From NCBI GenBank assembly GCA_943787485.1, contig CALSMP010000005.1, positions 62,001-126,000 of the forward strand: a stretch of DNA of 64,000 bases, in the 5' to 3' direction. This DNA is from an uncultured Luminiphilus sp. GTDB lineage: Bacteria > Pseudomonadota > Gammaproteobacteria > Pseudomonadales > Halieaceae. Within the stretch, counting starts at the first letter, position 1, and each line of letters begins with the position of its first letter. The position numbers and the translations under genes are program-made. This document shows, piece by piece, positions 5,146 to 18,576 of the stretch. Below the pieces are notes generated by a model, which saw only the letters and a program-made list of their open reading frames with translations, did no database searches and was not told where the DNA came from.

Positions 5146-6162
5146 ATGGACACGCAAACGCTGGATACCACACACCTTAAGGACTGGCTCGAGCAGCACA
5201 TCGGCAAGTTTGATGGCCCTGTTCTGGCCGAGAAATTCGCCGGGGGGCAGTCAAATCCTACATTTAAACTGACCGCAGGCGGCAACCGCTATGTCCTCCG
5301 ACGCAAGCCGCCTGGCAATTTGTTAGCTTCAGCCCACGCGGTAGACCGGGAATTTAGAGTGATTTCTGCTTTACAAGCCACGGACGTGCCAGTACCGCGG
5401 TCAATCGCGCTGTGCGAGGACGAGAGTGTCATTGGCTCGATGTTCTATGTTATGGAACACCTTGAAGGCAGAGTTTTTTGGGATCCCGCCGTCCCAGAGG
5501 TAAGTAACGAAGACCGTGCCGCTATTTATGATGACATGAATCGTGTGCTCGCCGGCCTGCATCAAGTGGATATCGAGCAAGTGGGTCTCACTGACTATGG
5601 CAGACCCGGAAACTATTTCGAGCGGCAGGTCAGTCGCTGGACCAAACAGTACCGTGCCTCAGAGACCGAGTCGATCGCCGCTATGGAGCAGCTCATCGAA
5701 TGGCTGCCACTCAACATGCCTGAGGACGACGGCAGAATAAGCTTGGTTCATGGGGATTACCGTTTAGATAATGTGATGTTTCACCCCACCGAACCCCGTA
5801 TTATCGCTGTCCTGGATTGGGAGCTGTCCACCCTAGGCAATCCGATTGCGGATCTGGCGTATCAGGTGATGGCCTGGCAACTTCCACCCCAAGGCGGTTT
5901 GGTCGGCATGGCCGGAGTTAACCGTGATGCACTGAAAATTCCATCTGACCATGCGTACATCAAGGCCTATTGCGATAGAACCGGCCGCGATGAGATCAAG
6001 CACTGGAATTTCTATCTGGTGTTTTGCTTCTTTCGGCTTGCTGCAATCCTTCAGGGAGTCAGAAAGCGCGGGCTTGACGGAAACGCCTCCAGCGCGGAAG
6101 CCATTGAGCGCGGCAATTTGACCACTCCTCTCGCCGAACTTGGCGTGTCGTTTATTGGCTAG
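5146..6162 (+). CDS. Phosphotransferase family protein (ACAD10/11-like APH domain)
   Basis: The 338-residue protein is an aminoglycoside-phosphotransferase-fold kinase. It shows the catalytic HGDYRLDNVMFH loop and the metal-binding DWE motif (VLDWELSTLGNP), and an N-terminal FAGGQSNPTF nucleotide-binding stretch. Bacterial members of this subgroup usually lie beside acyl-CoA dehydrogenase or ligase genes and match the kinase domain of human ACAD10/11, which phosphorylates 4-hydroxyacyl-CoA. A role in hydroxy-fatty-acid breakdown is thus plausible but inferred. The frame opens at 5092; I choose ATG 5146 because similarity begins there and it avoids overlap with the divergent synthetase leader. 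Confidence 0.82.
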   Translation: MDTQTLDTTHLKDWLEQHIGKFDGPVLAEKFAGGQSNPTFKLTAGGNRYVLRRKPPGNLLASAHAVDREFRVISALQATDVPVPRSIALCEDESVIGSMFYVMEHLEGRVFWDPAVPEVSNEDRAAIYDDMNRVLAGLHQVDIEQVGLTDYGRPGNYFERQVSRWTKQYRASETESIAAMEQLIEWLPLNMPEDDGRISLVHGDYRLDNVMFHPTEPRIIAVLDWELSTLGNPIADLAYQVMAWQLPPQGGLVGMAGVNRDALKIPSDHAYIKAYCDRTGRDEIKHWNFYLVFCFFRLAAILQGVRKRGLDGNASSAEAIERGNLTTPLAELGVSFIG

Positions 6163-6176
6163 ACACCTGCCCTCCC

Positions 6177-7833
6177 CTAATGGGTCACGCGAGCGTTGCC
6201 GGCCTTTAGCGCTCGGGATTGCCGGGTCTGATTTTGATTATTCCTTTTTTTCGAGGCCGTGCCGTTTGAGCCAGCCCTGAGCGCGTCAAGCTGCGCCTTA
6301 GTCGGCGGCGGTCTCCGTCGAGACGAACGCGGACGTCGATATTTTCGCGCATCCGGCCTGAGATCCCCGTACTCAAATCGGTACAAAATTTCTTCTAGAG
6401 TCCGCGATATCATCGTGCAACGTCTTATGGCTTCTACCTTTTCAAAGCAGGCTTGTTCACCGTAGCGAACGATCTCAAGTAACTGCTTGTCATCAACATG
6501 GGACAACAGCCTTAAAGGGTTAGCAAGACGGAAGCTGGGTATGATGTTGATATCCCCTGTGTACTCTTGGTCCATTAGCGCATGCAGACCATGCATCATC
6601 ATATTGAAGCGTGGCCAGCTGTCTCCTTGCCGCTGTGCTATACCCCGGTAAAAATTAAGCACCTCTCTGCCCAAGCCGACGCCAAAGGTACCGGCAGCCT
6701 TCGAAAGCGGGTGCTTATCCTCGCCCTTGGAAAGAAATGCCGTCGCTATCGGATTGACCATACTCACGATGTAGTGATTGGTGCTGAAGAGACGGGAAAG
6801 ACGTTTTGCCGGCAGATCATCTGCGACGGAGCCATCGACCCAGCGACGACCCGGGAGGTACGGTTGTGCTTCCCCATCAACATTCTTCGCCATGAGCATC
6901 ACTGGGGGGAAGACACCCGGGACGGCACAAGAGGCCATCACCGCGGCGCGAATGTACACATTGGGGGATGTCACCGCATTGAGCAACCGAGACCGTTGGT
7001 GCGGCTCAGCTGGGGCTACGGTGATACTGACCTGGCGTCCGGTTTTTGCATAGGCCTCTTCAAAAGTCATATCCGGGACCAGACGCGCCACGAGCGCCTC
7101 AAGGTCGGCCAACGAAATATGAGACCCACCGCCAAGCATGCGGCGAAAAAAACTCGCCTCCTTATTGGCTTCGCGATGAAGAATTGCAGGGTCCTGCAAA
7201 TTCAGCAGCTCTTCGTCGTCAAGACAGGCTAGAACACCAGCCACCAGCGCGCCTGCACTAGAGCCCGAGATTACTCTGGGCAGCAACCCCTGCGCCGTGA
7301 GCACATTAACCACGCCAAGATGGAGAAAACCCAGCACGCCCCCCGCCGCTCAGCATAAGGGCGGAACGGCCAAAGCAGGTATTCGCCCTATAAAAGAACT
7401 CGAGTTTTTGCTGAACAGGAATCACGTCCTCATCGAGCTCAGCCAGTAATCGAAGGGACGCGTCAATCTCGTCGATGTAGTCTTCGATCAATCGTTTGGT
7501 GCCACATTTGGCCATTCGGTAAAGCACACTTTGGCCCATGCCCCCCATATTGCCGTGGATTCCTTCGTTCAGCGCAAATAGCAGTCCTTGATAATCCTTC
7601 TTGCGCCGTAGTGCCTTTAAACGGTCACATCGCAATCGAATCTGCGCGTGGTCATAGAGGTCTGTCTCTTCCTCTTCTCGCCAGCTATCCATGCCGCTCG
7701 TGCTGTCGTGCTCGGCAGCAATGGCGTACCAATCCTTATAGTTACCAGCGCCTTTTAGGCGCGCCTCGATGTTTTTCAGCTGACGTTTAGTGCCCACAAA
7801 TACCTCGGTTGGCAAGACGTGACGTGCGATCAT
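6177..7833 (-). pseudogene. Patatin-like phospholipase (DUF3336 + patatin) split by a frameshift
   Basis: Two overlapping frames make one protein. The first (7833 down to about 7340) is a DUF3336-type N-terminal domain ending in GRSALMLSGG. The second (from about 7337 down to 6177) continues with LGFLHLGVV, the nucleophile elbow GSSAG and the DGS catalytic aspartate (RRWVDGSV). The junction is a run of six C at 7339-7344 (six G in the gene). With five G the frame reads MLSGGGVLGFLHLG, exactly the oxyanion and glycine-rich block expected. The intact enzyme would be a lipid acyl hydrolase of about 550 residues with a basic, low-complexity C-terminal tail. A sequencing error is as likely as a true mutation. 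Confidence 0.82.
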
Positions 7834-7931: not shown

Positions 7932-9311
7932 ATGATGAGTGATTTCGTAGGATACGCGGGGCTGCTCGCCAGTGTTTTTTTACTGATTTGGTTGGCTCTA
8001 CGCGGCATCGATATTATTTTCGCCGCTTTACTTAGCGCAATCGTGATCATTCTGACCAATCAACTGGCCTTCGCCGAATCGCTGCTTTCCGGGTTCGCCT
8101 TGGGTAAACTCGGGGCTTTTACATTTGCAGGAAAGTTTTTTTTACTGTTTGCGGCCGGCGCTATTTTTGGACGGGTTATGGGCGACTCAGGCGCCGCCGC
8201 CTCAGTGGCCCTCGCCTTGATCCGGCGAATGGGAGCCGAAAAGGCGCTCATCGTTACCACCCTCTCCTGCGCGTTACTAACCTACGGTGGTGTGGTGGTG
8301 TTTGTCGTCATTTTTGCAATGTACCCTCTTGGGCTGCAGCTGCTGAAAGAAGCCAACATTCCCAAGCGCCTTTTCTGTGCCGCATTGGCACTGGGAGCCG
8401 GCACATTTACCCTGACCGCTCTCCCAGGCACCCCATCAATTCAAAATGTTATCTCCGCCACGGCACTAAATACCAGCCTGTTTGCGGCGCCCTGGCTTGG
8501 CATGATTGGTGGCATCACCATGTTTGCTTTGGGACTCTGGTACCTAGAGACACAGCGCCGACTGGCCCATGATCGTGCCGAGGGCTTTGAGCCCGGACCA
8601 CGCGACCAGCTTATTGACGTAAACGCCGAACCGCTTCCCCACTGGGTCCTGGCCGTGTCGCCGCTGGTTGTCGTTCTGGGCACTATTATGCTTCCGCGGC
8701 TTTTTCTCGCTGCAGGCGCGGCCGTAACGGGGAGTGCAGCAGAGCTACTCGAGTTCGCCAACAATCAGCCGGTTGTCTGGCCGAGCATCGCACTTTTACT
8801 GGGGAGCGTTCAGGCGGCTCTGCTTTTCCCCAGAGTCCGATACCGGGCCCTTTTGGTGATGGGTCGAGGGACGCAGGATGCCATCCTCCCATTGATTAAC
8901 ACCGCCGCGGTAATAGGCTTCGCTGGGGTCGTCACTCAGACCCAGGGTTTTCAAACCTTCCTCACCCTCGCGATCGACTCGGGCCTGCCTCCGCTGCTCT
9001 CCGTGTTTGGATCGATCAGCTTGATCTCAGCCATTACGGGTTCAGCCTCTGGCGGTTTGCAGATATTCATGCAAACGCTTGGGCCACAATATCTTGAAAT
9101 GGGCCTTGAGCCTGAAGTCCTGCACCGGGTTGCCACGATTGCTAGTGGTGGCTTTGACTCTCTGCCCCACTGCGGCGCGGTGGTAGCAATGCTCACAATT
9201 ACCCAGCTGACCCACAAGCAGGCTTATCGCGACGTTGGCGTGATCACTGTGGTCATTCCCGTGATTGCAACGCTGGTAACGATTGGCGCCGCGAGCTTGG
9301 GTATCCGCTAG
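7932..9311 (+). CDS. GntP-family permease
   Basis: The 459-residue protein is almost entirely hydrophobic, with around twelve predicted membrane segments and a hydrophilic loop near residues 195-240. The pattern and the conserved ALPGTPSIQN and SGSASGG-like stretches match the GntP family of proton-coupled carboxylate/gluconate transporters, whose members also import D-beta-hydroxybutyrate. The substrate is not evident. Lipid genes on both sides suggest an organic acid linked to fatty-acid metabolism. Two adjacent ATGs (7932, 7935) are possible starts; GGAT and AGAGG lie just upstream. It is head-to-head with the patatin gene and tail-to-tail with the next ligase (3-nt gap). Confidence 0.8.
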   Translation: MMSDFVGYAGLLASVFLLIWLALRGIDIIFAALLSAIVIILTNQLAFAESLLSGFALGKLGAFTFAGKFFLLFAAGAIFGRVMGDSGAAASVALALIRRMGAEKALIVTTLSCALLTYGGVVVFVVIFAMYPLGLQLLKEANIPKRLFCAALALGAGTFTLTALPGTPSIQNVISATALNTSLFAAPWLGMIGGITMFALGLWYLETQRRLAHDRAEGFEPGPRDQLIDVNAEPLPHWVLAVSPLVVVLGTIMLPRLFLAAGAAVTGSAAELLEFANNQPVVWPSIALLLGSVQAALLFPRVRYRALLVMGRGTQDAILPLINTAAVIGFAGVVTQTQGFQTFLTLAIDSGLPPLLSVFGSISLISAITGSASGGLQIFMQTLGPQYLEMGLEPEVLHRVATIASGGFDSLPHCGAVVAMLTITQLTHKQAYRDVGVITVVIPVIATLVTIGAASLGIR

Positions 9312-9314
9312 CGC

Positions 9315-10856
9315 TTAAGCGTCCCGATTTCGGTAGGCCTCCATCAAGTGCCGCTTATAGAGCTTTCCGTTGTCCATACGCGGCAGCTGCTCCATAAAAT
9401 CGAGCGACTTGGGCACCTTGATTGTCGAGAGCCGCTCCTTCATCCAGGCAATCAGTTCGGCGGCAAGATCATCGGTGGCGTCCGACCAGTTTGCGGGCTG
9501 GACGACAGCCTGCACAACCTCGCCAAACTCCTCATCGGCAATTCCAAACACCGCCACGTCAGCAACTTTTTCATGACCAATTAAGAGGTTTTCAATTTCT
9601 GCGGGGTACACATTGACACCGCCAGTAATAATAGTGAAGTTCCGGCGGTCTGTTAGGTATAAGAACCCCTCTGCATCCAAGTAACCCACGTCGCCGATCG
9701 TGGTCCAACCATTGGCATTATAAGCCTCTTTAGTTTTGGTCGGTTCATTGTGATATTCAAAGGCATTATGAATATCTGAAAACCATATTGTTCCGACCTC
9801 CCCCGCGCCGAGCTCGTTGCCGTCATCGTCGAGAATGTGTGGCACACCGAACAGCGCTTTTCCAACCGATCCTTTATGCTCAAGCCAAGACGCGGAGTCT
9901 ATTAGAGTAAAACCGGCGCCCTCGCTGGAGGAGTAATACTCAACAATAACCGGGCCCCACCATTCAATCATTTTTTCTTTTACATCAATCGGGCAAGGCG
10001 CTGCCGCGTGAATGGCTACTTGCATTGAGGATAGATCAAATTGGCGCCTGATTGCCTCATCAAGCTTTAGCATGCGCACAAACATAATGGGAACCCACTG
10101 GCTATGGGTAATTCGATACGCCTCGATAAGCTCAAGCGCGCGAACCGCGTCGAACTTCTCCATGATCACCGACGTACCGCCGGTATCTAGGACTATCATG
10201 TTGTAGTGTAGAGGCGCAGCATGGTAGAGCGGCGCCGGCGAGAGATAGGTTGTTTCGGACCCAAATCCAAACGCGGCTCCGATCGAGGTGGTCAACCCAA
10301 GTGGCGCATCCCACTGGTCTGTATGCGGCGGGAGGAATATTCCCTTTGGCTGGCCGGTAGTGCCAGAGGAATAGAGCATCGTGGCCCCCATCATTTGATC
10401 ATCAATCGGCCGTGATGGCAGCAAGTCGATCGCTTCCTCATAGGATTCGAACCCTTCGTAGACACCACCAACCATATAAAAGTGGCCGACCCCTGGCGCC
10501 TCAGACACCATCATCTTGGCTACCTCGGCTAGACTCGAAGACGCTATGAAAAGTTTGGCTCCGCAGTTCTCAAGGATGTAAGCGGTCTCGTCCTTCTTCA
10601 GGTGGGTACTGATCGGCGTAAAGATAACGCCCGATCGCATGGCAGCAGCCGCGACTTCGAGGAACTCCCGACAGTTGACCAGCATCATGGCTACATGATC
10701 TCCGGGGCCAACACCACAAAGACGAAACAGATGAGCGACCTGATTGCTGCGCGCGTCCAACTCGCCGTATGTGACGACCTCCCCAGAGTTGGCCATGATG
10801 TAGGCTGGTTTTTGTGGTGTTTCAGCTGCCGTCACGGACAGATGTGGCATGGTCAC
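9315..10856 (-). CDS. AMP-binding acyl-CoA synthetase
   Basis: This 513-residue ligase has the YSSGTTGQPKG P-loop, the YYSSSEGAG adenylate-binding motif, the TIGDVGYLD motif and the C-terminal catalytic-lysine block MDNGKLYK. It would form acyl-CoA from a free acid, ATP and CoA in the cytoplasm. It resembles ligases often annotated as long-chain or bile/steroid-acid CoA ligases, but the substrate is not determined. It is distinct from the synthetase at 3222-4925. It is transcribed divergently from the D-glutamate/5-oxoproline operon, sharing a 156-nt intergenic region. Starts at 10856 (MTMPHL) or 10850 (MPHL) are both possible. Confidence 0.87.
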   Translation of the reverse strand: MTMPHLSVTAAETPQKPAYIMANSGEVVTYGELDARSNQVAHLFRLCGVGPGDHVAMMLVNCREFLEVAAAAMRSGVIFTPISTHLKKDETAYILENCGAKLFIASSSLAEVAKMMVSEAPGVGHFYMVGGVYEGFESYEEAIDLLPSRPIDDQMMGATMLYSSGTTGQPKGIFLPPHTDQWDAPLGLTTSIGAAFGFGSETTYLSPAPLYHAAPLHYNMIVLDTGGTSVIMEKFDAVRALELIEAYRITHSQWVPIMFVRMLKLDEAIRRQFDLSSMQVAIHAAAPCPIDVKEKMIEWWGPVIVEYYSSSEGAGFTLIDSASWLEHKGSVGKALFGVPHILDDDGNELGAGEVGTIWFSDIHNAFEYHNEPTKTKEAYNANGWTTIGDVGYLDAEGFLYLTDRRNFTIITGGVNVYPAEIENLLIGHEKVADVAVFGIADEEFGEVVQAVVQPANWSDATDDLAAELIAWMKERLSTIKVPKSLDFMEQLPRMDNGKLYKRHLMEAYRNRDA

Positions 10857-10940
10857 TTCCTCTTGTTAATTTCCGGCACCTCTGGAGCAGAGGCTGTCAC
10901 AGGCTCCCTGAGCAGCCGTGCGATGCATTTCTCGCGCATC

Positions 10941-10970
10941 ATACTGCGATTTTGAGGTAGTCTGCAGTAT
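10941..10970. promoter_or_regulatory. Candidate operator: inverted repeat ATACTGC-N16-GCAGTAT
   Basis: ATACTGC at 10941-10947 and its exact reverse complement GCAGTAT at 10964-10970 flank 16 bases. The half-site centres are 23 nt apart, about two helical turns, as expected for a dimeric regulator. The site lies between the divergent acyl-CoA synthetase and the D-glutamate/5-oxoproline operon, about 45 nt upstream of the operon start. No regulator gene is nearby, so its identity is unknown. A seven-base inverted repeat can also occur by chance. Confidence 0.35.
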
Positions 10971-11012
10971 CGTAGGGCCCTGCACTCAGGGTTTTTTCAT
11001 GGAGCACTACGG

Positions 11013-11813
11013 GTGACGAAGCTCGACAGCAACGCTACACCTCGACAATGGCGCCGCTTAATTCGCGAGGGCGGCTACGACGCGCCAACTAGCGGGCTTT
11101 GTGGCGGATTTTTGCAATGCAACCTGGTAATCCTCCCTCGGGATGCCGCGGATGAATTCGAGGATTTTTGCCTCTCCAACCCCAAGCCATGCCCGCTTCT
11201 TGCTAAAAGCACAACACCAGGAGATCCATCACTACCCAGTCTCGGTGAGGGCATTGATGTGCGCTTCGACCTGCCCCGCTACCGGCATTGGCAAGCAGGC
11301 AAGGTCGTTGATGAACTTGCGTCCATTGAACACCTTTGGAAAGACAACGACGTGGCTTTTGCCCTGGGCTGCTCGTTTTCTTTTGATCACGCGCTAGGGA
11401 AAGCGGGGATTGATGTCAGGCATGTTAGTGAAGGGTGTAACGTACCTATGTACCGCACCTCAATTACCTGTGAAAAGGCTGGGCGGTTCTGGGGTGACAT
11501 GGTCGTGAGCATGCGCCCTATGACATCGAAAGATGCCATCAGGGCGATCGAGATCAGCACGCATTACCCCGAGGCGCATGGTGCGCCTGTTCACCTGGGC
11601 GATCCGACTCTTATCGGAATTAATGACCTGAAAACCCCTGACTTTGGCTCTGCCGTTAGTCTCAAGACCGGTGAAATACCTGTTTTCTGGGCGTGTGGAG
11701 TCACGCCACAAATAGTGCTAGAAAATGCACAACTTCCGATTGCATTTACCCACGCACCCGGACACATGCTGATCACGGATAAAACCCACGAGGATCTTTA
11801 TGAAATCAGTTAA
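11013..11813 (+). CDS. UPF0317/DUF1445 protein, D-glutamate cyclase N-domain homologue
   Basis: This 266-residue protein belongs to the YcsI/UPF0317 (DUF1445) family, seen from the RDAADEFEDFCLSNPKPCPLL-like block near residues 45-65, the CSFSFDHAL motif and the C-terminal FTHAPGHM motif. Mammalian D-glutamate cyclase (DGLUCY), which turns D-glutamate into 5-oxo-D-proline, consists of this domain followed by a DUF4392 domain; here DUF4392 is a separate gene at 14233 in the same operon. Bacterial members are often called putative hydro-lyases. The start is GTG 11013, with GGAG eight bases upstream; an ATG at 10998 in the same frame meets a stop at once. It is the first gene of the operon and overlaps pxpA by 14 nt. 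Confidence 0.85.
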   Translation: MTKLDSNATPRQWRRLIREGGYDAPTSGLCGGFLQCNLVILPRDAADEFEDFCLSNPKPCPLLAKSTTPGDPSLPSLGEGIDVRFDLPRYRHWQAGKVVDELASIEHLWKDNDVAFALGCSFSFDHALGKAGIDVRHVSEGCNVPMYRTSITCEKAGRFWGDMVVSMRPMTSKDAIRAIEISTHYPEAHGAPVHLGDPTLIGINDLKTPDFGSAVSLKTGEIPVFWACGVTPQIVLENAQLPIAFTHAPGHMLITDKTHEDLYEIS

Positions 11814-12588
11814 ACAGGTGGTTAGCAGAAGCCGTCGGAAGACTGCGCCGCAAGAAAAGAGAAAAATACTGATCAATTGTGATCTTGGCGAGAGTTTCGG
11901 CGCCTGGAAAATGGGGTGCGATGAAGACATTATGCCGCACGTCGATTGCGCCAATATTGCCTGTGGTTTCCACGCAGGAGATCCCAGCGTTATGCGCAAA
12001 ACGCTGTTGCTTGCCAAACACCATAAAGTCGAGATTGGCGCCCACGTCGGTTATCCGGATTTGCAGGGGTTTGGACGTCGCTCAATGCAACTCAGGGGAC
12101 AGGAACTAATTGATTGCATTCACTACCAAATGGGAGCCCTCGACGGCATTGCCCGCTCTCACGGATTGCGTCCCACCTACTTCAAACCCCACGGCGCACT
12201 TTATAACGATATGGTCTCAGATCGGATGCTCACCGAAACCGTAATCAAGGCGGCGTCCACCTGGTTCAGGGGGGCCGACCTTGTAGTCATGGCGACAGCA
12301 AATGACAAAAAAACCGTGCAAATGGGCATCGAGTATGGCGTTACCCTTCGATTCGAAGCATTTGCGGATAGGGGCTATAGCTCGAGCGGCGCGCTGATTC
12401 CAAGAGGCGAAGCAAATGCGGTGCTGGTTACCGAGGCTGCGGTAGAGCAAGCGATTGCCATTGCGAATGGCCAACTGAAAAGCCAGTCTGGAAAGCGACT
12501 CAACATTCTGCCTGATACGGTGTGCGTTCATGGGGATACCCCCAACGCGGTAGCGATGGCTGCGGCGATCCGCCAGGCACTGGTCTGA
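11800..12588 (+). CDS. pxpA: 5-oxoprolinase subunit PxpA (LamB/YcsF family)
   Basis: PxpA is one of three subunits of the ATP-dependent 5-oxoprolinase that opens 5-oxoproline to glutamate. Family marks are NCDLGESFGAWKMG (about residues 26-39), ANIACGFHAGDP (about 51-62), GAHVGYPD, YFKPHGALYND and the C-terminal VCVHGD. The length of 262 residues is usual, with about 20 extra basic residues at the N-terminus. A later start at the first conserved block has no good codon. The ATG overlaps the end of the UPF0317 gene by 14 nt, which suggests translational coupling. The name LamB/YcsF refers to an Aspergillus lactam-utilisation gene and has nothing to do with the maltoporin. Confidence 0.93.
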   Translation: MKSVKQVVSRSRRKTAPQEKRKILINCDLGESFGAWKMGCDEDIMPHVDCANIACGFHAGDPSVMRKTLLLAKHHKVEIGAHVGYPDLQGFGRRSMQLRGQELIDCIHYQMGALDGIARSHGLRPTYFKPHGALYNDMVSDRMLTETVIKAASTWFRGADLVVMATANDKKTVQMGIEYGVTLRFEAFADRGYSSSGALIPRGEANAVLVTEAAVEQAIAIANGQLKSQSGKRLNILPDTVCVHGDTPNAVAMAAAIRQALV

Positions 12589-12599
12589 CGAATCGACGG

Positions 12600-13280
12600 G
12601 TGGAATTATCGAGTAGCCCAGCGGGGCTTAATGGATTAAATCTCAGGCTGTCGGGGGATCCGGGACCGGCGATGACTGATTATTTGTGTGGGCTATCTGA
12701 CCATCTATGCGCAGCTAATGAAGGTTTTGTTGTCGACCGAGTCATTGGGTACAGATCCCTTACGCTCTTTTTCTCTGGGACCATCACAGACTATACCGAC
12801 ATACTTACCGCAGCGGAACAGTACCGGCATGAGGCGCGATCAGTCACAGAAACGAGCGAACTCATCCGGCTACCGGTATGGTATTCGGAAGAATCGGGCT
12901 CCGATCTATTGCACGTTGCGCAGTACTGCGACCTCAGCGTAGATGAGGTCATTACCCTTCACACGGAAACAATATACGTGGCAGCCGCCACCGGATTTGC
13001 GCCAGGCTTCGCTTATCTTGGCTACACCCCTGAGCCTCTTAAAATGCCCCGCCTCGACACGCCACGACGCGTCGTACCAGCAGGAAGTGTCGCCATCGCT
13101 GACCGGCAAACGGCAGTCTACCCATCATCGTCACCGGGTGGGTGGAGATTGATCGGACGCTGCCCCACCCGCCTCTTTTCCCTCGACTGGGATCCTCCGG
13201 TAAAAATACAGGTAGGGGATCGTGTTCAGTTTTACCCCATTTGTCAGAACGAATTCGCGGCGCTCGGTGGATCCCCGTGA
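12600..13280 (+). CDS. pxpB: 5-oxoprolinase subunit PxpB (KipI family)
   Basis: The 226-residue protein matches PxpB/KipI, which pairs with PxpC (KipA) in the 5-oxoprolinase complex. The conserved core runs through ATGFAPGFAYLGY (about residues 129-141), PRRVVPAGSVAIAD and YPSSSPGGWRLIGRCP. The frame is open from 12522, inside pxpA, but family similarity begins only after about 12600. I choose GTG 12600, 11 nt after the pxpA stop. The ribosome site is weak, so reading may depend on coupling to pxpA. The stop overlaps the pxpC start by four bases (GTGA). Confidence 0.9.
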   Translation: MELSSSPAGLNGLNLRLSGDPGPAMTDYLCGLSDHLCAANEGFVVDRVIGYRSLTLFFSGTITDYTDILTAAEQYRHEARSVTETSELIRLPVWYSEESGSDLLHVAQYCDLSVDEVITLHTETIYVAAATGFAPGFAYLGYTPEPLKMPRLDTPRRVVPAGSVAIADRQTAVYPSSSPGGWRLIGRCPTRLFSLDWDPPVKIQVGDRVQFYPICQNEFAALGGSP

Positions 13281-14236
13281 ACAGCTTTCGGATCATAGAA
13301 GCCGGTCTCTCGACCACGATTCAGGACACGGGCCGACTGGGACTACTTGGCGCAGGTATCACCCAAGGCGGTGTCACCGATCCTTTTATGATGGCACTCG
13401 CGAATACTTTGGTTAGCAACCCGCCCGATGCAGCCGTGCTCGAATTGACCCTGGGTGCGCTTCAGCTCGAGGTCACCGGTGCCTTTTCAGTTTGTCTCAC
13501 CGGAGCACCTTGCGAGCTCGCTATTAATGGGAGCCCCGCAGACATGGCTGGGCCGCATCATGTGGCAACAGGAGATTTGGTTACGGTGGGTAAGTGCCAT
13601 CAGGGAATCTACAGCTTTCTGGCGATATCCGGGGGTATTGATACGCCGCCGGTTCTTGGCAGCCGAAGCACCGTCGTCAGAGAGAGCCTGGGCGGGCTTG
13701 GCGGGCGTCGATTGCGCGTGGGCGATATCCTCGCGCTGGGTGATAGCCCCGGCGTTGGCGATACAAAAAGGACCAGGCGCGATGCCGGCAGCGCTGGGAT
13801 TGTCTCCGAATTAGAGTCCTGCCTTACGCTGCGCTTTATTCGGGGGTTTGATTGGGAAGATTGTGCGCCCGAGGCGGCGGAAGGTCTCCTTGAGTCTGAA
13901 TTTTCTGTGGCAAGCGACTCCAATCGAATGGCAATACGCCTAACGGGTGGTCATCTTCAGACCGGAATTACAGAGGCGTGGTCTGAGGCCACCTGCTATG
14001 GCTGTATTCAGGTTCCAACAGACGGCGAGCCATTTATTCTCATCAATGACCGGCAAACGATGGGGGGATATCCTAAGCTAGGAGCCGTGATAGCAACTGA
14101 CTGTGTGCGCCTGACACAAGCCCGGGCGGGCACCCGAGTCACTTTTCAGGCGATCACCCTTGAGGAAGCAAAACATCTGGCTTGGCTTGAAGCGCACTAT
14201 CAGGAAACCTTGCAGCAGGCTTTGAACCAACCATGA
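13277..14236 (+). CDS. pxpC: 5-oxoprolinase subunit PxpC (KipA / biotin-dependent carboxylase-like)
   Basis: The 319-residue protein has the family opening AGLSTTIQDTGRLG at residues 8-21, then GGVTDPFMMALAN, a self-fold with ISGGID near residue 118 and the late FILINDRQTMGGYPKLG block. It partners PxpB in hydrolysing ATP and 5-oxoproline. Homologous folds occur in urea amidolyase and allophanate hydrolase, but the adjacent pxpA points to 5-oxoprolinase. The frame is open from 13142, but the GTG at 13277 inside GTGA is the natural coupled start, and MNSFRIIEAG is the expected N-terminus. The stop overlaps the next start by four bases (ATGA). Confidence 0.92.
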   Translation: MNSFRIIEAGLSTTIQDTGRLGLLGAGITQGGVTDPFMMALANTLVSNPPDAAVLELTLGALQLEVTGAFSVCLTGAPCELAINGSPADMAGPHHVATGDLVTVGKCHQGIYSFLAISGGIDTPPVLGSRSTVVRESLGGLGGRRLRVGDILALGDSPGVGDTKRTRRDAGSAGIVSELESCLTLRFIRGFDWEDCAPEAAEGLLESEFSVASDSNRMAIRLTGGHLQTGITEAWSEATCYGCIQVPTDGEPFILINDRQTMGGYPKLGAVIATDCVRLTQARAGTRVTFQAITLEEAKHLAWLEAHYQETLQQALNQP

Positions 14237-15066
14237 CAGCGCCTTTAGCAGAGCTCAGCAACCATCTAGAGTCGCTTCTCGTCGCCGAAAATCATCGAGG
14301 CATGAAGTCCCTGCGAGAAGCGCTTCCACCAGGCTCTTATCTCCGCGCGGCTGAGCTGCTTAATAACGCTAAAGGCAACGTTTTTATTATTACAGGCTTT
14401 CCGATTGCTGGCACCTTTGAAACCGACGGCCCCCCGGGAGCATTAGTCATTTATGACCACCTAGAGGCTCTCGGCGCGACGCCTTGGATTGTTGCTGACT
14501 CTGACCTCGTTGCTGCACTTGCCGGTCGCGTTCGGGCTCTGACAGTTCCTGAGGGCTCTCACGCTAACCAGCTGATTGAACGCCTCTCGCCCGCACTGAT
14601 TGTCGCCATAGAGCGACCCGGCGAGGCGGCAGATGGCAGGTTCTACAACATCAGGGGCATTGACATATCAGGGCGATGTCACTCTGTCGCTCCGCTACTG
14701 GCTGCTGCAGACTGCCCAATTATCGCGATCGGAGATGGCGGCAATGAGGTTGGCATGGGTAAGGCCCTGACGGCTACCGAGGCACTGCCAATCACCCCCT
14801 CCGTTGTTACATGCGACGAGCTGCTGGTCGCTGATGTTTCTAACTGGGGCGCGTATGGGCTTGTGTTGCTGAGCGCCTACGCACTAGATCCAAAGAATTT
14901 ACCTAATATTAACCCAGCTGCCCTGCTATCTTTCGTCGTGAGCTTGGGGGCGGTCGATGGCGTCACAGGGCGTTGCGAGACCACCGAAGATGGATTGAGC
15001 CCAGAAAAAACATCAGCATTGCTTGAGAAGTTGACAGCCTTGTTTAATTCGGACGTTCACGTATGA
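14233..15066 (+). CDS. DUF4392 protein, D-glutamate cyclase C-domain homologue
   Basis: This 277-residue protein is a stand-alone DUF4392 domain, the part of mammalian DGLUCY to which the cyclase activity is ascribed. Visible marks are ITGFPIAGTFETDGPPGA (about residues 53-70), a nucleotide-fold-like stretch to about residue 100, the IAIERPG motif and IAIGDGGNEVGMGK (about residues 170-183). It would interconvert D-glutamate and 5-oxo-D-proline in the cytoplasm. It starts and ends within four-base ATGA overlaps (with pxpC and the transaminase), so it is firmly part of the operon. The family call is strong; the substrate in this organism is inferred from the family and the neighbours. Confidence 0.85.
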   Translation: MTAPLAELSNHLESLLVAENHRGMKSLREALPPGSYLRAAELLNNAKGNVFIITGFPIAGTFETDGPPGALVIYDHLEALGATPWIVADSDLVAALAGRVRALTVPEGSHANQLIERLSPALIVAIERPGEAADGRFYNIRGIDISGRCHSVAPLLAAADCPIIAIGDGGNEVGMGKALTATEALPITPSVVTCDELLVADVSNWGAYGLVLLSAYALDPKNLPNINPAALLSFVVSLGAVDGVTGRCETTEDGLSPEKTSALLEKLTALFNSDVHV

Positions 15067-15932
15067 CAATCGCCTACCTCAATGGTGACTATTTACCGCT
15101 GGAACAGGCCTCGATCTCCCCAATGGACCGAGGCTTCTTATTTGGTGACGGCATTTATGAGGTCATACCCAGCTACGGCGGCCGGTTTGTCGGCTTTGAT
15201 CGCCACTTCGATCGCCTGACCGCCGGCCTCTCTTCCATCAGCTTGAAAAGCCCCTTCTCTGCCGTGGCGCTAAAGAACCTTCTTGAAGAACTCATTAATG
15301 CTAATGCAACTCTCGACACAAGCGGTGGACTTGGCCTTTATCTCCAGGTTACCCGTGGCACCTCCCCCAAACGTAATCACCAGTTTCCCAATTCAATCAC
15401 CCCCACGGTTTTTGCTTTCACCTTCGACATACCACCTCCAATAGCTGGCAATGTTGACAAGGCTCACACTTTTTCAGTCGTGACTGGAAGGGATTTACGC
15501 TGGCAGCGATGCAACATCAAGTCGGTCTCTCTGCTAGGAAACGTGCTGCATATGATGGAGGGCGTTGCCGAGGGAGCAGAAGAAATTTTACTATTCAACG
15601 AGAGGGACGAACTCACTGAAGCGTCCACCAGTAATGTATTTATTGTGCGCGATGGATCCATTAGAACCCCCAACCTTGATCATCAAAAGCTGGGGGGCAT
15701 TACCCGAAATATGCTGGTGGATATGCTCCGGAAGCATAGTACGCTATCTGTAATCGAGGGAACTGTTAGTCGTGCTGACGTGTCATCAGCTGACGAAGTG
15801 TGGCTCACAAGCTCAACCAAGGAAATCTCACCCGTGGTACAAATCGATGGCGAGCTCGTTGGCGCTGGAAGGCCAGGCCCGGTGTGGTCAGAAGCCCAAA
15901 CCCTGTTTGACCGCTACCGCTTTGACTACTGA
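15063..15932 (+). CDS. D-amino-acid transaminase (class IV PLP enzyme)
   Basis: The 289-residue protein is a fold-type IV aminotransferase. The block DLRWQRCNIKSVSLLGNV around the PLP-binding Lys153 is the signature of D-alanine/D-amino-acid transaminase rather than of branched-chain or PabC enzymes. MDRGFLFGDGIYEV near residue 21 and LTEASTSNVF complete the family pattern. It would exchange amino groups between D-amino acids and 2-oxoglutarate, giving D-glutamate. In the operon this is the feeding step for the cyclase. ATG 15063 overlaps the preceding stop; the next gene begins 8 nt after its stop. Confidence 0.9.
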   Translation: MTIAYLNGDYLPLEQASISPMDRGFLFGDGIYEVIPSYGGRFVGFDRHFDRLTAGLSSISLKSPFSAVALKNLLEELINANATLDTSGGLGLYLQVTRGTSPKRNHQFPNSITPTVFAFTFDIPPPIAGNVDKAHTFSVVTGRDLRWQRCNIKSVSLLGNVLHMMEGVAEGAEEILLFNERDELTEASTSNVFIVRDGSIRTPNLDHQKLGGITRNMLVDMLRKHSTLSVIEGTVSRADVSSADEVWLTSSTKEISPVVQIDGELVGAGRPGPVWSEAQTLFDRYRFDY

Positions 15933-15940
15933 GCATTATC

Positions 15941-17011
15941 GTGGCGAGACCTAGCTACTTTGACATCGACCTCAGGGCGCTAGAGCACAATGTTCGCCTG
16001 ACAAAAAAACGGGCAGCCAACAAAAAAATCTGCGCCGCCGTAAAGGGCGATGCTTACGGGCATGGCCTCATTCCTTGTGCCGAGATAATCGCCCCCCATG
16101 TCGATAGCCTGGCCGTGGCTTTTTGTGAGGAAGCATCAGCCTTGCGCCAGACCGGCGACCTGCCACGAATAGTGGTCCTCGAAGGTCCGTTTGATTTAGC
16201 GGATGCAAGATTCATCGCTGACAACGGTTTAGATTCAGTAGTACATTCAGCGTATCAGGTAGAGCTTTTGTTCAGTGCGCGATTACCAGCCAGATCGACG
16301 ATATGGTTAAAGCTCGACAGCGGGATGCATCGACTAGGGCTAGAGGACGGCGAAATTACCGCCCAACTCAAGCGCCTCGAGAGCAACAACCACAGCAACA
16401 TAGGACTAATGAGTCACTTAGGCGATGCTGAATCCGTCGACTCCGCAATGACTCAAGCGCAGCTTGTACGGTGGTGCGCAGCCGTAGACAAACGCTCGCT
16501 GCCAACCAGCCTGTTGAATTCAGCCGCGATCCTTCATGGCTATGACACAAAATCAGATTGGGTGCGTCCCGGTATTATGCTTTACGGCGCCGCAGACCTC
16601 CCTACCGAGCATGAGGATCGACTGCTGCCAGTCATGCATTTTCGATCAGCCGTAATGGCACTGCGCTGGATCAATGAATCCGAGGTTGTGGGTTATGGCG
16701 GCCGCTGGCAGGCGAGCAAACCAACTCGTGTTGCGACAGTACCGGTTGGTTATGCCGATGGATATCCACGCACAGCGCGCAATGGAACCCCCGTCTTGAT
16801 TGATGGCGTTGAATGTCCACTGATCGGCAGGGTATCGATGGATATGATTACCGTCGATGTCACCGCGCTAGCCTCGGTGGAAGTCGGTAGTGAAGTAGAG
16901 CTATGGGGAAGCAGCTTGGCCGTCAACACCGTCGCCCAACATGCTGGTACCATCGGTTATGAATTGCTCACGCGGTTGCCCGCGCGCTGCCCGAGACGTT
17001 GGAGTCGTTGA
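15941..17011 (+). CDS. alr: Alanine racemase family protein
   Basis: This 356-residue fold-type III PLP enzyme has the lysine block AAVKGDAYGHG (Lys35), a LDSGMHRLG loop, the VRPGIMLYG motif and VPVGYADGYPR, all typical of alanine racemase. Near the end TIGYELLTRLPAR matches the family. It interconverts L- and D-alanine, or possibly other amino acids. Position in a D-glutamate operon suggests a catabolic or broad-range racemase beside a separate biosynthetic Alr/MurI, but that cannot be decided here. Start is GTG 15941. It is the last gene of the tight operon; ppx follows after about 40 nt and could be read through. Confidence 0.88.
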   Translation: MARPSYFDIDLRALEHNVRLTKKRAANKKICAAVKGDAYGHGLIPCAEIIAPHVDSLAVAFCEEASALRQTGDLPRIVVLEGPFDLADARFIADNGLDSVVHSAYQVELLFSARLPARSTIWLKLDSGMHRLGLEDGEITAQLKRLESNNHSNIGLMSHLGDAESVDSAMTQAQLVRWCAAVDKRSLPTSLLNSAAILHGYDTKSDWVRPGIMLYGAADLPTEHEDRLLPVMHFRSAVMALRWINESEVVGYGGRWQASKPTRVATVPVGYADGYPRTARNGTPVLIDGVECPLIGRVSMDMITVDVTALASVEVGSEVELWGSSLAVNTVAQHAGTIGYELLTRLPARCPRRWSR

Positions 17012-17055
17012 ATGCCGCGCAAAGATCATGATGATTGCACTAAATAGGAATGCTT

Positions 17056-18576
17056 GTGGTCGCTAGCGCCAATTCAGTCCCGGATGGAAGCCTTCTTGCC
17101 GCGATAGATTTGGGCAGTAATTCGTTCCATCTGATTGTCGCCCGCTTAGAGCACGGGGAGATCAAACCTGTGCATATGCTGGGAGAGCGAGTGCAATTAG
17201 GCGCCGGTCTTGAGCGGGGGCGCTTGGCGCCCGATGCCATGGACCGAGGGCTGGATTGCCTCGCACGGTTTGCTCAACTTTTGGAAAGCATGGATTTAGC
17301 TGGTGTTCGAGTTGTCGGGACCAATGCGCTACGACAGGCCAAAAATCGCCGAGAATTTACCCGCGCCGCGGAAAAGCTACTTGGGGTTCCCGTTGACGTG
17401 GTATATGGCCGTGAGGAAGCGCGGCTAATTTATCTCGGTGTTGCGCACACCCTAGCCGACGACGAAGCGAGCAGATTAGTGGTCGACATTGGTGGCGGAA
17501 GCACCGAATTTATTGTCGGAAGACGTTTCGAACCGCAACGACTGGTGAGTCTGCAGCTAGGGTGCGTTAGCTATGCACAAATGTTTTTCCCCGAGGGCAT
17601 TATCACCTCGAAAAACTTTAAGCGCGCCTATGAACATGCACTTGTCGAAGTGTCCCGTATCAAAAAACACTACCGCGCCCAGCATTGGGCCGAAGCCGTT
17701 GGCTCGTCAGGCACGCTTCAGGCCATCGAGTTACTCGTCCAGCATGCAGGCTGGCTTGAGAACGGTATCGACAGAAAATCCCTCGAGAAGCTGCGGAAAA
17801 AGCTGCTCAAATACCAACATGCCGATGAGATTGACCTCGAGGGACTCAATGACAAACGAAAGCATGTGATCACCGCCGGCGTTGCTATCGCCATGGCAAT
17901 TTTTGACGGCCTCGCCATTGAAATCATGCGCACTTCAAAAGGGGCCCTTCGTGAGGGACTTATCTACGACCTCGTCGGTCGACTGTCTCATGAGGACGTG
18001 CGTGAGCGGTCCATTGCCGCGATGGTATCGCGCTACGGCGCCGATGAAGGCGCCAGTCAGCTGGTGAGCGATCGATTAATTTGGCTAGCGCAAAGTGTAA
18101 AATCGGCGTGGGGATTAGACGACAGCCAAATCGAGCTCGCGGCTTGGGCGGGGCGCTGCCATGAAATAGGAACCGCGATTTCGCAGAAACACTACCACCA
18201 CCACTCCGCCTACCTCATTGAAAACACAGATATGCCAGGGTTTTCTCAAGATGAGCAGGAAATAATGGCGGTGTTCCTGAGGGGACAACGCGGCAAGATT
18301 GCCGCAGACTTGTTGTCCACCGTAGCTGACGAAGCTCGCGACAGCTTGGGGAAACTCACGGCCTTACTCAGGATAGCCGTTATGTTTAAGTGGAGCGAAT
18401 CCACTGAGGACTTTGACTCCCTGTCAGCGGTACCGGAAAAGAATAAGATCGTGATTTATGTCCCACTCGGCTGGCGAAAGCGTCACCCTCTGACCCTCTG
18501 GGAGATCAAAACATCGAAGAGCATCTTGGCTAAGCTCGGTGTGACCGTCACGCTTCGGAACAAGCGCGATAATTAG
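17056..18576 (+). CDS. ppx: Exopolyphosphatase / pppGpp phosphohydrolase (Ppx/GppA family)
   Basis: The protein of about 506 residues has the two ASKHA phosphate loops, DLGSNSFHL near residue 17 and DIGGGSTEF near residue 145, followed by the HD-like C-terminal region with GRCHEIGTAIS and HHHSAYLIEN. It cuts terminal phosphate from polyphosphate or pppGpp; the sequence alone does not separate the two. An ATG at 17050 is in frame, but AGGA (17046-17049) touches it; GTG 17056 is better spaced. A strong terminator follows at 18585. Confidence 0.9.
   Translation: MVASANSVPDGSLLAAIDLGSNSFHLIVARLEHGEIKPVHMLGERVQLGAGLERGRLAPDAMDRGLDCLARFAQLLESMDLAGVRVVGTNALRQAKNRREFTRAAEKLLGVPVDVVYGREEARLIYLGVAHTLADDEASRLVVDIGGGSTEFIVGRRFEPQRLVSLQLGCVSYAQMFFPEGIITSKNFKRAYEHALVEVSRIKKHYRAQHWAEAVGSSGTLQAIELLVQHAGWLENGIDRKSLEKLRKKLLKYQHADEIDLEGLNDKRKHVITAGVAIAMAIFDGLAIEIMRTSKGALREGLIYDLVGRLSHEDVRERSIAAMVSRYGADEGASQLVSDRLIWLAQSVKSAWGLDDSQIELAAWAGRCHEIGTAISQKHYHHHSAYLIENTDMPGFSQDEQEIMAVFLRGQRGKIAADLLSTVADEARDSLGKLTALLRIAVMFKWSESTEDFDSLSAVPEKNKIVIYVPLGWRKRHPLTLWEIKTSKSILAKLGVTVTLRNKRDN

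Follow-up and report, generated by a model that had tools for sequence, protein, structure and literature searches.

A conserved Luminiphilus operon that probably joins D-glutamate-making and D-glutamate-removing genes

Gene content of the operon

The window, a stretch of 64,000 nucleotides from an uncultured Luminiphilus species, was analyzed by open reading frame (ORF) reading and family scans, which revealed seven consecutive ORFs on the plus strand between positions 11013 and 17011. The first gene (11013..11813) encodes a DUF1445/UPF0317 protein (PF07286, D-Glu_cyclase, 216.7 bits), whose mammalian homologue is the N-terminal half of D-glutamate cyclase. It is followed by the genes for 5-oxoprolinase subunits A, B and C: pxpA (11800..12588; PF03746, 288.8 bits; best NCBIfam model PRK05406.1-5, above cut-off), pxpB (12600..13280; PF02682, 191.3 bits; TIGR00370, 155.5 bits, above cut-off) and pxpC (13277..14236; PF02626, 257.6 bits; TIGR00724 above cut-off), so that the three families adjoin one another in both Pfam and NCBIfam. 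The fifth gene (14233..15066) encodes a DUF4392 protein (PF14336, GLUCM-like_C, 208 bits), homologous to the C-terminal half of the mammalian cyclase and to TON_0340. The last two genes are dat (15063..15932; PF01063, class IV aminotransferase), encoding a probable D-amino-acid transaminase, and alr (15941..17011; alanine racemase N and C domains; TIGR00492, 310.5 bits with a cut-off of 168), encoding alanine racemase.

All seven gene products exceed the curated Pfam cut-offs and, judged from these matches, the identities of all seven genes hold. The junctions along the operon are -14, +11, -4, -4, -4 and +8 nt, in line with the initial annotation, which had described seven genes in order that overlap or lie at most 11 nt apart. 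The GTG start codons of pxpB (12600) and pxpC (13277) were chosen by us, the mechanical ORFs opening earlier at 12522 and 13142; the PxpC family match starts at about residue 50 (NCBIfam) or 72 (Pfam) of the longer ORF. PxpC passes the broader model TIGR00724 and reaches 220 bits with the equivalog model NF045499, far under its cut-off of 500. An Rfam search for a leader RNA or attenuator gave no match up to E 1 across positions 10500-17300, and promoter- and terminator-like sites were about as frequent as in shuffled sequence.

Conservation of the gene set

Every one of the 26 Luminiphilus loci retrieved with DUF4392 has all seven genes together on a single strand. At order level, in a sample of 244 genomes, 25 of 34 loci do, so the genes are not chance neighbors. 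The conservation in other genomes on which the initial annotation had staked its reading was thus found. The named loci, the 80 best among 586 confirmed candidates, are skewed toward near relatives; 29 of them carry all seven on one strand, and 56 do so when Alr is not required. A chance neighborhood is ruled out by this conservation across genus, order-level and named loci, although the three sets partly overlap (L178 and G245 are one contig) and contig ends truncate some of the loci.

A dat gene that adjoins DUF4392 or lies near it, with the strand shared, was seen in 32 of the 34 loci at order level and in 68 of the best 80 named loci. In 2 and 12 loci, respectively, Dat is not nearby, some of these being cut by contig ends, and the five upstream genes are present with no Dat nearby in 10 of the 80. 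Fisher tests on the locus counts take no account of relatedness. DUF1445 was found somewhere in the genome in 34 of 35 DUF4392 genomes, and 26 of 60 DUF1445 genomes lack DUF4392. No description of the seven-gene set as a single pathway was found among the matches listed in the open-licence PMC literature, which agrees with the initial annotation but is no proof of absence.

Neighboring genes were identified in part (15 by eye, 10 by Pfam and 8 by NCBIfam, partly the same genes), and no conserved transporter or peptidase was among them. A gene for a GntP/CitMHS-like carrier at 7932-9311 was considered as the module's carrier and rejected, as it occurs in 1 of 26 genus loci with the module versus 9 of 14 without it. 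In one locus of Pseudoalteromonas lipolytica (L249), a glycoside hydrolase family 3 gene lies directly upstream on the same strand.

The DUF1445 and DUF4392 proteins

The DUF1445 protein matches NCBIfam PRK05463, "putative hydro-lyase", above cut-off, and has the solved relatives 2pif and 3db9. Its predicted model (pLDDT 89.8) matched 2pif in Foldseek with an E value of 2e-32 and was otherwise only weakly like the NrpR-like protein MJ0159 (3nek, TM 0.39-0.46). The DUF4392 protein scores 111 bits with TON_0340, and its predicted model (pLDDT 93.8) matched TON_0340 chains and, weakly, resembled DHH/RecJ-type phosphoesterases in fold. The metal-site acids Glu-63, Asp-65, Glu-127, Asp-168, Glu-172 and Asp-253 do not vary across the 23 sequences aligned. 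The fold matches settle the chemistry of neither protein.

According to the available part of the mouse study (PMC5339696), mouse D-glutamate cyclase converts D-glutamate to 5-oxo-D-proline and makes no L-glutamate, which matches the product named in the initial annotation. The same part of the report describes a "racemase homology" of DUF4392 based on one T. lienii protein that itself contains DUF4392, and for this reason the racemase name is probably circular. It was set aside, also because racemase activity was absent from the recombinant mouse protein in those data (PMC5339696). In the available text on TON_0340 (PMC5132392), the protein has an acidic two-metal site and is labeled a Mn-dependent phosphatase with a natural substrate unknown to its authors.

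Supply of D-glutamate

Glutamate racemase MurI (TIGR00067) was above cut-off in none of 25 Luminiphilus genomes, some of which are near complete (G000, the genome of the window, is 89.7% complete), and in none of the 10 members of the family within the order sample. Weak matches of 25-28 bits to the MurI model were seen in 7 of the 25, far under the cut-off of 147. In the 244 order genomes, where a genome without a listed match was counted as MurI-negative and Fisher tests ignore relatedness, MurI is missing in 41 of 66 Dat-positive versus 30 of 178 Dat-negative genomes and present in 25 of the 66. Twenty-seven of the 35 DUF4392 genomes in this sample lack MurI, all of them with Dat, and the other 8 have it.

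The operon alr is the sole alanine racemase match in G000, and the operon dat its sole close D-amino-acid transaminase. Lys-35 and Tyr-271 of Alr, which we take to be the catalytic lysine and tyrosine, are present in 49 of 49 aligned sequences, as are Arg-104, His-106 and Lys-153 of Dat. Dat is best matched by D-amino-acid-transaminase models, yet stays under their curated cut-offs (TIGR01121, 229 of 277 bits; PRK06680, 235 of 320 bits). Its closest solved relatives are 4pbc and 4m0j, whose depositors named them D-amino acid aminotransferases. The window Dat agrees at each residue with the canonical D-amino-acid-transaminase motif given in Table 2 of PMC10003956 (F26 Y31 [VA]33 [KRPT]35, xYxQ and RxH), reading FGDGIYEVIP, LYLQ and RNH. 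Because MurI was detected in 0 of 25 genus genomes and G000 has one Alr and one close Dat, both in the operon, Alr and Dat are probably foremost biosynthetic and supply D-alanine and D-glutamate for the wall.

Two PxpABC types and a clade without the five-gene module

In 14 Luminiphilus genomes that form one clade, the five upstream genes are missing as a block at the site and Dat-Alr is kept. A ligase gene lies beside Dat in 13 of these 14 loci; the remaining one, L102, begins at a contig end. The clade was read from a site tree of 48 of 49 loci plus the window (L159 had too few of four genes), built on the site's own genes and not a species tree, and in the 14 genomes DUF1445 was searched within the locus stretches only. 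The persistence of Dat-Alr in the absence of DUF4392 likewise indicates a probably biosynthetic first role for the pair. Since these genomes live without the module, removal of D-glutamate would not be essential.

The module-less clade has a different PxpABC, located next to an Nramp-type gene. PxpA in sister species is of the pxpT type, from which the operon PxpA separates as a lineage of its own (split support 1.0). Fifty-seven genus genomes have PxpA, of which 51 divide into 35 with PxpA on the DUF4392 contig and 16 with PxpA elsewhere with an Nramp-type gene; none has it in both places, so the two PxpABC types behave as if they were mutual stand-ins. A tblastn search with an Nramp protein as query found the gene in all 16 loci with the other PxpABC type and in 0 of 60 retrieved DUF4392 loci; ORF reading and family scans found none in the window. 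The clade with the pxpT-type cluster in place of the module offers a natural control.

Comparison with known systems

Both halves of mammalian D-glutamate cyclase (DGLUCY/C14orf159; mouse 9030617O03Rik; PMC5339696, as far as available) have homologues in the operon, where they are two unfused genes with pxpABC between them and with dat and alr in the same operon. A published table (PMC11580864) already counts 6 cases in gut bacteria in which homologues of the human enzyme are split over neighboring genes; a pxpABC, dat or alr context is not mentioned in the part of that paper available. The pxpA-pxpB-pxpC order is common to the operon and to pxpTABC of Corynebacterium glutamicum, described for 5-oxo-L-proline utilization in the available text of PMC13274462. 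Unlike that cluster, which itself occurs in the 16 sister genomes, the operon has no Nramp-type pxpT (60 of 60 DUF4392 loci), its PxpA is of the other lineage, and DUF1445, DUF4392, dat and alr are additional.

Bacillus subtilis, a control genome, shares DUF1445 (YcsI) in its ycsFGI-kipIA region, where the YcsI gene presumably lies beside pxpABC. DUF4392 had 0 matches in 14 control genomes including B. subtilis, and we know of no dat-alr pair in that region. As in a plain Dat and Alr supply of D-glutamate and D-alanine for peptidoglycan, dat and alr are adjacent and MurI is not above cut-off; here, however, the supply genes come after a D-glutamate-cyclase/5-oxoprolinase module. TON_0340 of Thermococcus shares the family and the six metal-site acids with the operon DUF4392 protein, but is a stand-alone archaeal protein (PMC5132392).

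Interpretation

The Luminiphilus operon is conserved and combines genes that probably make with genes that probably remove D-glutamate. The supply enzymes Alr and Dat and the removal or repair proteins DUF1445, DUF4392 and PxpABC may together form a D-glutamate node, a reading to which we give about even odds (roughly 0.5). Alr would convert L-alanine to D-alanine, and Dat would transfer its amino group to 2-oxoglutarate, yielding D-glutamate for the cell wall, because the lineage shows no classical glutamate racemase. DUF1445 and DUF4392 together would turn surplus D-glutamate into 5-oxo-D-proline, and the operon PxpABC, of a separate lineage and with no uptake gene adjoining, would re-open intracellular 5-oxoproline at the expense of ATP. 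PxpABC may act in the organism on the D-lactam, on the L-lactam or after an inversion; if it opened the D-lactam, cyclase and PxpABC would form an ATP-wasting cycle. The MurI and Dat genome counts, the DUF4392-Dat linkage, DUF1445 in 34 of 35 DUF4392 genomes, the absence of the block with Dat-Alr kept, the separate PxpABC lineage with no Nramp-type gene found near it and the action of the mouse cyclase on D-glutamate argue for this reading. Dat staying under the curated cut-offs, a DUF4392-Dat link that is not absolute, MurI in 8 of 35 DUF4392 genomes and in 25 of 66 Dat genomes, the weak MurI-model matches in 7 of 25, possible other D-glutamate sources, the ATP-wasting cycle if PxpABC opened the D-lactam and a module dispensable in 14 genomes argue against it.

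The initial annotation had instead proposed salvage, in which D-amino acids from outside, such as marine organic matter, or from wall turnover serve as a source of nitrogen and carbon, Dat yielding D-glutamate, the cyclase halves 5-oxoproline and PxpABC L-glutamate. The gene identities, the operon-like layout, the conservation and the common D-glutamate theme are supported, and a candidate gene exists for each enzyme from D-amino acid through D-glutamate to 5-oxo-D-proline; the glycoside hydrolase gene of L249 could hint at wall salvage. The draining role fared less well: the neighbors identified include neither a conserved carrier nor a conserved peptidase, no Nramp-type gene was found in the 60 retrieved DUF4392 loci, the GntP/CitMHS-like carrier lies mainly in module-less loci, and the Dat-Alr pair persists where the module is absent. 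The route to L-glutamate skips a stereochemical step, as the mouse product is 5-oxo-D-proline (PMC5339696) and PxpABC is described for 5-oxo-L-proline (PMC13274462), both as reported in the parts available. L-Glutamate would thus require inversion of the lactam, and salvage appears unlikely. To our knowledge, no protein of the operon has a lactam-inverting activity.

It is similarly doubtful that one transcript serves two unrelated purposes, with Alr-Dat working for the wall and the cassette repairing 5-oxo-L-proline formed spontaneously from L-glutamate or L-glutamine, DUF1445 and DUF4392 being accessory. The spontaneous formation of 5-oxo-L-proline (available text of PMC13274462), the either-or distribution of PxpA in the genus, DUF1445 without DUF4392 in 26 of 60 genomes and the 10 of the best 80 named loci with no Dat near the five genes agree with such a division. 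The wide DUF4392-Dat linkage and the D-glutamate activity of the fused mammalian homologue in the available mouse data (PMC5339696) speak against it.

With about the same low probability, the five-gene module could be an ATP-driven one-way return from D-glutamate to L-glutamate that stands in for the reverse MurI reaction. DUF4392 and DUF1445 would cyclize D-glutamate, and one of them or the operon-lineage PxpABC would also handle the inversion. If so, MurI-less bacteria would separate the making of D-glutamate (Alr-Dat) from its un-making (the module), with both in one operon.

Least probable is a module run in reverse for D-lactam repair or use, with 5-oxo-D-proline opened to D-glutamate for the wall or for Dat, which with pyruvate would give 2-oxoglutarate and D-alanine for conversion to L-alanine by Alr; by our reasoning it uses all genes and needs no inversion, and the acidic two-metal site (PMC5132392, available part) and weak DHH/RecJ-type fold match are compatible with a hydrolase, but the activity demonstrated for the mouse enzyme is in the cyclizing direction (PMC5339696, available part), and a cell would hardly need two different systems that open a lactam to the same product.

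Bacterial homologues of both cyclase halves had no assigned role in the papers found. The operon links them to a distinct PxpABC lineage and to D-glutamate supply enzymes in bacteria with no detected glutamate racemase, which makes the roles of DUF1445 and DUF4392, the lactam enantiomer opened by PxpABC and the disposal of D-glutamate in the absence of MurI directly testable.

D-Glutamate may also come from a source other than MurI or Dat, such as the MurD2/MurL epimerase route, with MurL or a second MurD-type enzyme, or a DapF that racemizes; one MurD was above cut-off in G000. The DgcN pathway of D-glutamate was set aside for the genome of the window, as DUF1611 (PF07755), which we take to be the DgcN family, had 0 matches in G000. 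Among the 25 genus genomes, seven exceed the DUF1611 cut-off, and three of these seven (G249, G258 and G264) also have DUF4392-type loci in the retrieved set.

Gene content and favoured reading of the operon

The seven genes at 11013-17011 all lie on the plus strand, in the order DUF1445 (UPF0317), pxpA, pxpB, pxpC, DUF4392, dat, and alr, with junctions of -14, +11, -4, -4, -4, and +8 nt. All seven products passed the Pfam cut-offs for DUF1445 (PF07286), PxpA, PxpB, PxpC, DUF4392 (PF14336), class IV aminotransferase, and alanine racemase, respectively. The alr product also passed the NCBIfam alanine racemase model at its curated cut-off, and D-amino-acid transaminase (Dat) was the top-ranked NCBIfam model for the dat product, with a score below the cut-off. 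The latter carries the canonical D-amino-acid-transaminase motif described in an excerpt of PMC10003956, its residues R104, H106, and K153 are kept in all 49 aligned sequences of the genus and family, and its closest solved structures, 4pbc and 4m0j, were both deposited as D-amino acid aminotransferases. The six metal-site acids of TON_0340, an archaeal DUF4392 protein, are all kept by DUF4392 in 23 of 23 aligned sequences; by nearest named relatives, the host groups with an uncultured Halieaceae bacterium (61% identity in DUF4392) and with Luminiphilus MAGs. For the predicted model of the DUF1445 protein (11013-11813), the sole low-E fold match outside its own family was the NrpR-like MJ0159 (3nek, E 9e-6, TM 0.39-0.46). 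NrpR is a sensor of 2-oxoglutarate, which like glutamate is a five-carbon diacid.

We read the operon, at a probability of about 0.5, as a D-glutamate node that combines supply and removal or repair. Alanine racemase (Alr) and Dat would provide D-glutamate, and the five-gene module from DUF1445 to DUF4392 would act on it. The parts, namely the D-glutamate cyclase halves, PxpABC, Dat, and Alr, are already known, and an excerpt of PMC11580864 counts six cases in gut bacteria where the human cyclase has a split homologue encoded by adjacent genes. Neither the seven-gene combination nor its tie to genomes without the classical glutamate racemase MurI was found among the matches listed in the open-licence literature.

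Conservation of the gene set

In a profile search, PF14336 exceeded its cut-off in 35 of 244 sampled genomes of the order and in 35 of 57 genomes of the genus Luminiphilus. All seven genes were close together on a single strand in each of the 26 genus loci with DUF4392 examined and in 25 of the 34 examined at order level. The remaining nine lacked Alr (L115, L117), Pxp and Alr (L121), PxpB and PxpC (L127), DUF1445, PxpB, and PxpC (L129), PxpA, Dat, and Alr (L132), or a nearby DUF1445 (L136), or had a solitary DUF4392 (L131) or DUF4392, Dat, and Alr only, at a contig end (L145). Among the named loci (best 80 of 586 candidates, some interrupted by contig ends), 29 had the complete set, 27 lacked Alr only, 10 lacked Dat and Alr, and 14 lacked other members; the hosts include Rheinheimera, Marinobacterium, Amphritea, Neptunomonas, Cocleimonas, and Thiothrix. 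Within the Halieaceae, Halioglobus is an example of a culturable bacterium with the cluster. DUF1445 is present in 60 of the 244 order genomes, 26 of them without DUF4392, and accompanies DUF4392 in 34 of 35 genomes, at a separate place in three (G003, G103, G134). It is also present in the control genome of B. subtilis, where the gene lies beside pxp genes.

Several loci have a LysR-type regulator gene between DUF4392 and dat (L116 and L118 by eye, L234 by Pfam), and one cluster of such regulators is common to 8 of 20 loci examined; the regulator is possibly a sensor of D-glutamate or 5-oxoproline.

Salvage of external D-amino acids is an unlikely function, as there is no conserved carrier or peptidase among those neighbour genes that were identified. 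In its favour, a glycoside hydrolase family 3 gene (L249 of Pseudoalteromonas lipolytica, 5532-7412) lies directly upstream of DUF1445-pxpA-DUF4392-dat, a possible link to wall turnover.

Two types of PxpABC

A search with PF03746 detected PxpA in 51 of the 57 genus genomes; 35 carry it on the same contig as DUF4392 and 16 elsewhere, and it was not found in the other six (54-88% complete). No genome has PxpA in both settings, and none of the 16 has DUF4392. Their clusters (L260-L275) all contain pxpA and pxpB, 15 contain pxpC, and one contig ends; an Nramp-family gene lies upstream of the pxp genes in all 16 (two cut, four Pfam-checked), resembling pxpTABC of C. glutamicum as described in part of PMC13274462. 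DUF1445 gave no match in these 16 stretches, nor did the Nramp gene in 60 DUF4392 loci searched. A PxpA tree separates the 16 from 123 DUF4392-linked sequences, the window's included, with support 1.0. Identity to the window PxpA is 35-39% for the 16; among DUF4392-linked sequences it is 43-50% at order level (n=30) and 39-64% in the named set (n=66, from the best 80 of 586 loci). The best NCBIfam model was PRK05406.1-5 for three operon-type and PRK05406.1-3 for two other-type proteins. Judged by sequence, the operon PxpABC is a lineage of its own without an uptake gene, which fits a substrate produced intracellularly.

The mutual replacement of the two types also fits a common housekeeping role. 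This exchange between genomes would suit two unrelated services sharing one transcript, an arrangement we regard as doubtful given that DUF4392 and Dat are linked in 32 of the 34 loci at order level and in 68 of 80 named ones (best 80 of 586).

Source of D-glutamate

MurI (TIGR00067) was above the cut-off in none of 25 genus genomes searched, compared with 9 of 13 non-genus genomes in the same draw; seven genus genomes gave only weak matches, scoring 25-28 bits where the cut-off is 147, and the 10 genomes of the family within the order sample gave no match. In the order sample (n=244), MurI was absent from 41 of 66 Dat-positive and 30 of 178 Dat-negative genomes (p about 3e-11, which is overstated because the genomes are related), and Dat without MurI occurs in 17 family-level groups. 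Among the 35 order genomes with DUF4392, eight have MurI and 27 lack it, all 27 with Dat. The window's own genome (2.67 Mb, 23 contigs, 89.7% complete) has a single alanine racemase, located in the operon, and one close Dat, besides two remoter aminotransferases (30 and 25% identity). Wall D-glutamate and D-alanine are thus probably supplied here by Dat and Alr, although D-glutamate may alternatively come from MurL, from an additional MurD, or from a DapF with racemising activity, mentioned in an excerpt of PMC5885031. A close Dat was not found in eight genus genomes (54-94% complete; G250 and G263 among them), and the five of these searched for MurI had none above the cut-off, so that assembly gaps or another D-glutamate source are possible.

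Stereochemistry of the module

The mouse D-glutamate cyclase, a fused DUF1445 and DUF4392 homologue, converts D-glutamate to 5-oxo-D-proline, with neither L-glutamate formation nor racemase activity, according to part of PMC5339696, and PxpABC of C. glutamicum is described for 5-oxo-L-proline in an excerpt of PMC13274462. A route from D- to L-glutamate therefore needs an inversion, which the initial annotation left unaddressed when it drew a chain from D-glutamate via 5-oxoproline to L-glutamate. Should PxpABC open the D-lactam, cyclase and PxpABC would form an ATP-burning circle. A bolder reading, an ATP-driven return path from D- to L-glutamate substituting for MurI, appears improbable. Reverse running, from 5-oxo-D-proline to D-glutamate and then by Dat and Alr to 2-oxoglutarate and L-alanine, avoids the inversion problem and is the least probable of these readings.

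Probable natural loss of the module

In 14 genus loci (L092-L105), Dat, Alr, and Ppx keep their usual order and the five genes are absent; the acyl-CoA ligase gene adjoins dat in 13, and L102 ends at that point. A tree built from Dat, Alr, ligase, and Ppx places these loci in one clade (support 1.0) nested among module-bearing lineages, and a single change is enough to explain the distribution. Loss is the simpler reading, since the module is also present in all nine outgroup loci (in L136, DUF1445 is missing from the site). The clade still carries 5-oxoprolinase genes, of the Nramp-linked type.

On contig C8 of the genus genome G253 (99218-104334), DUF4392, alr, and pxpA are each in pieces in differing frames, from either assembly frameshifts or operon decay. 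In the window, a GntP/CitMHS-like carrier gene (7932-9311), below both models' cut-offs, precedes the divergent acyl-CoA ligase gene; such a carrier occurs in 9 of the 14 module-less genus loci and in 1 of 26 module-bearing ones.
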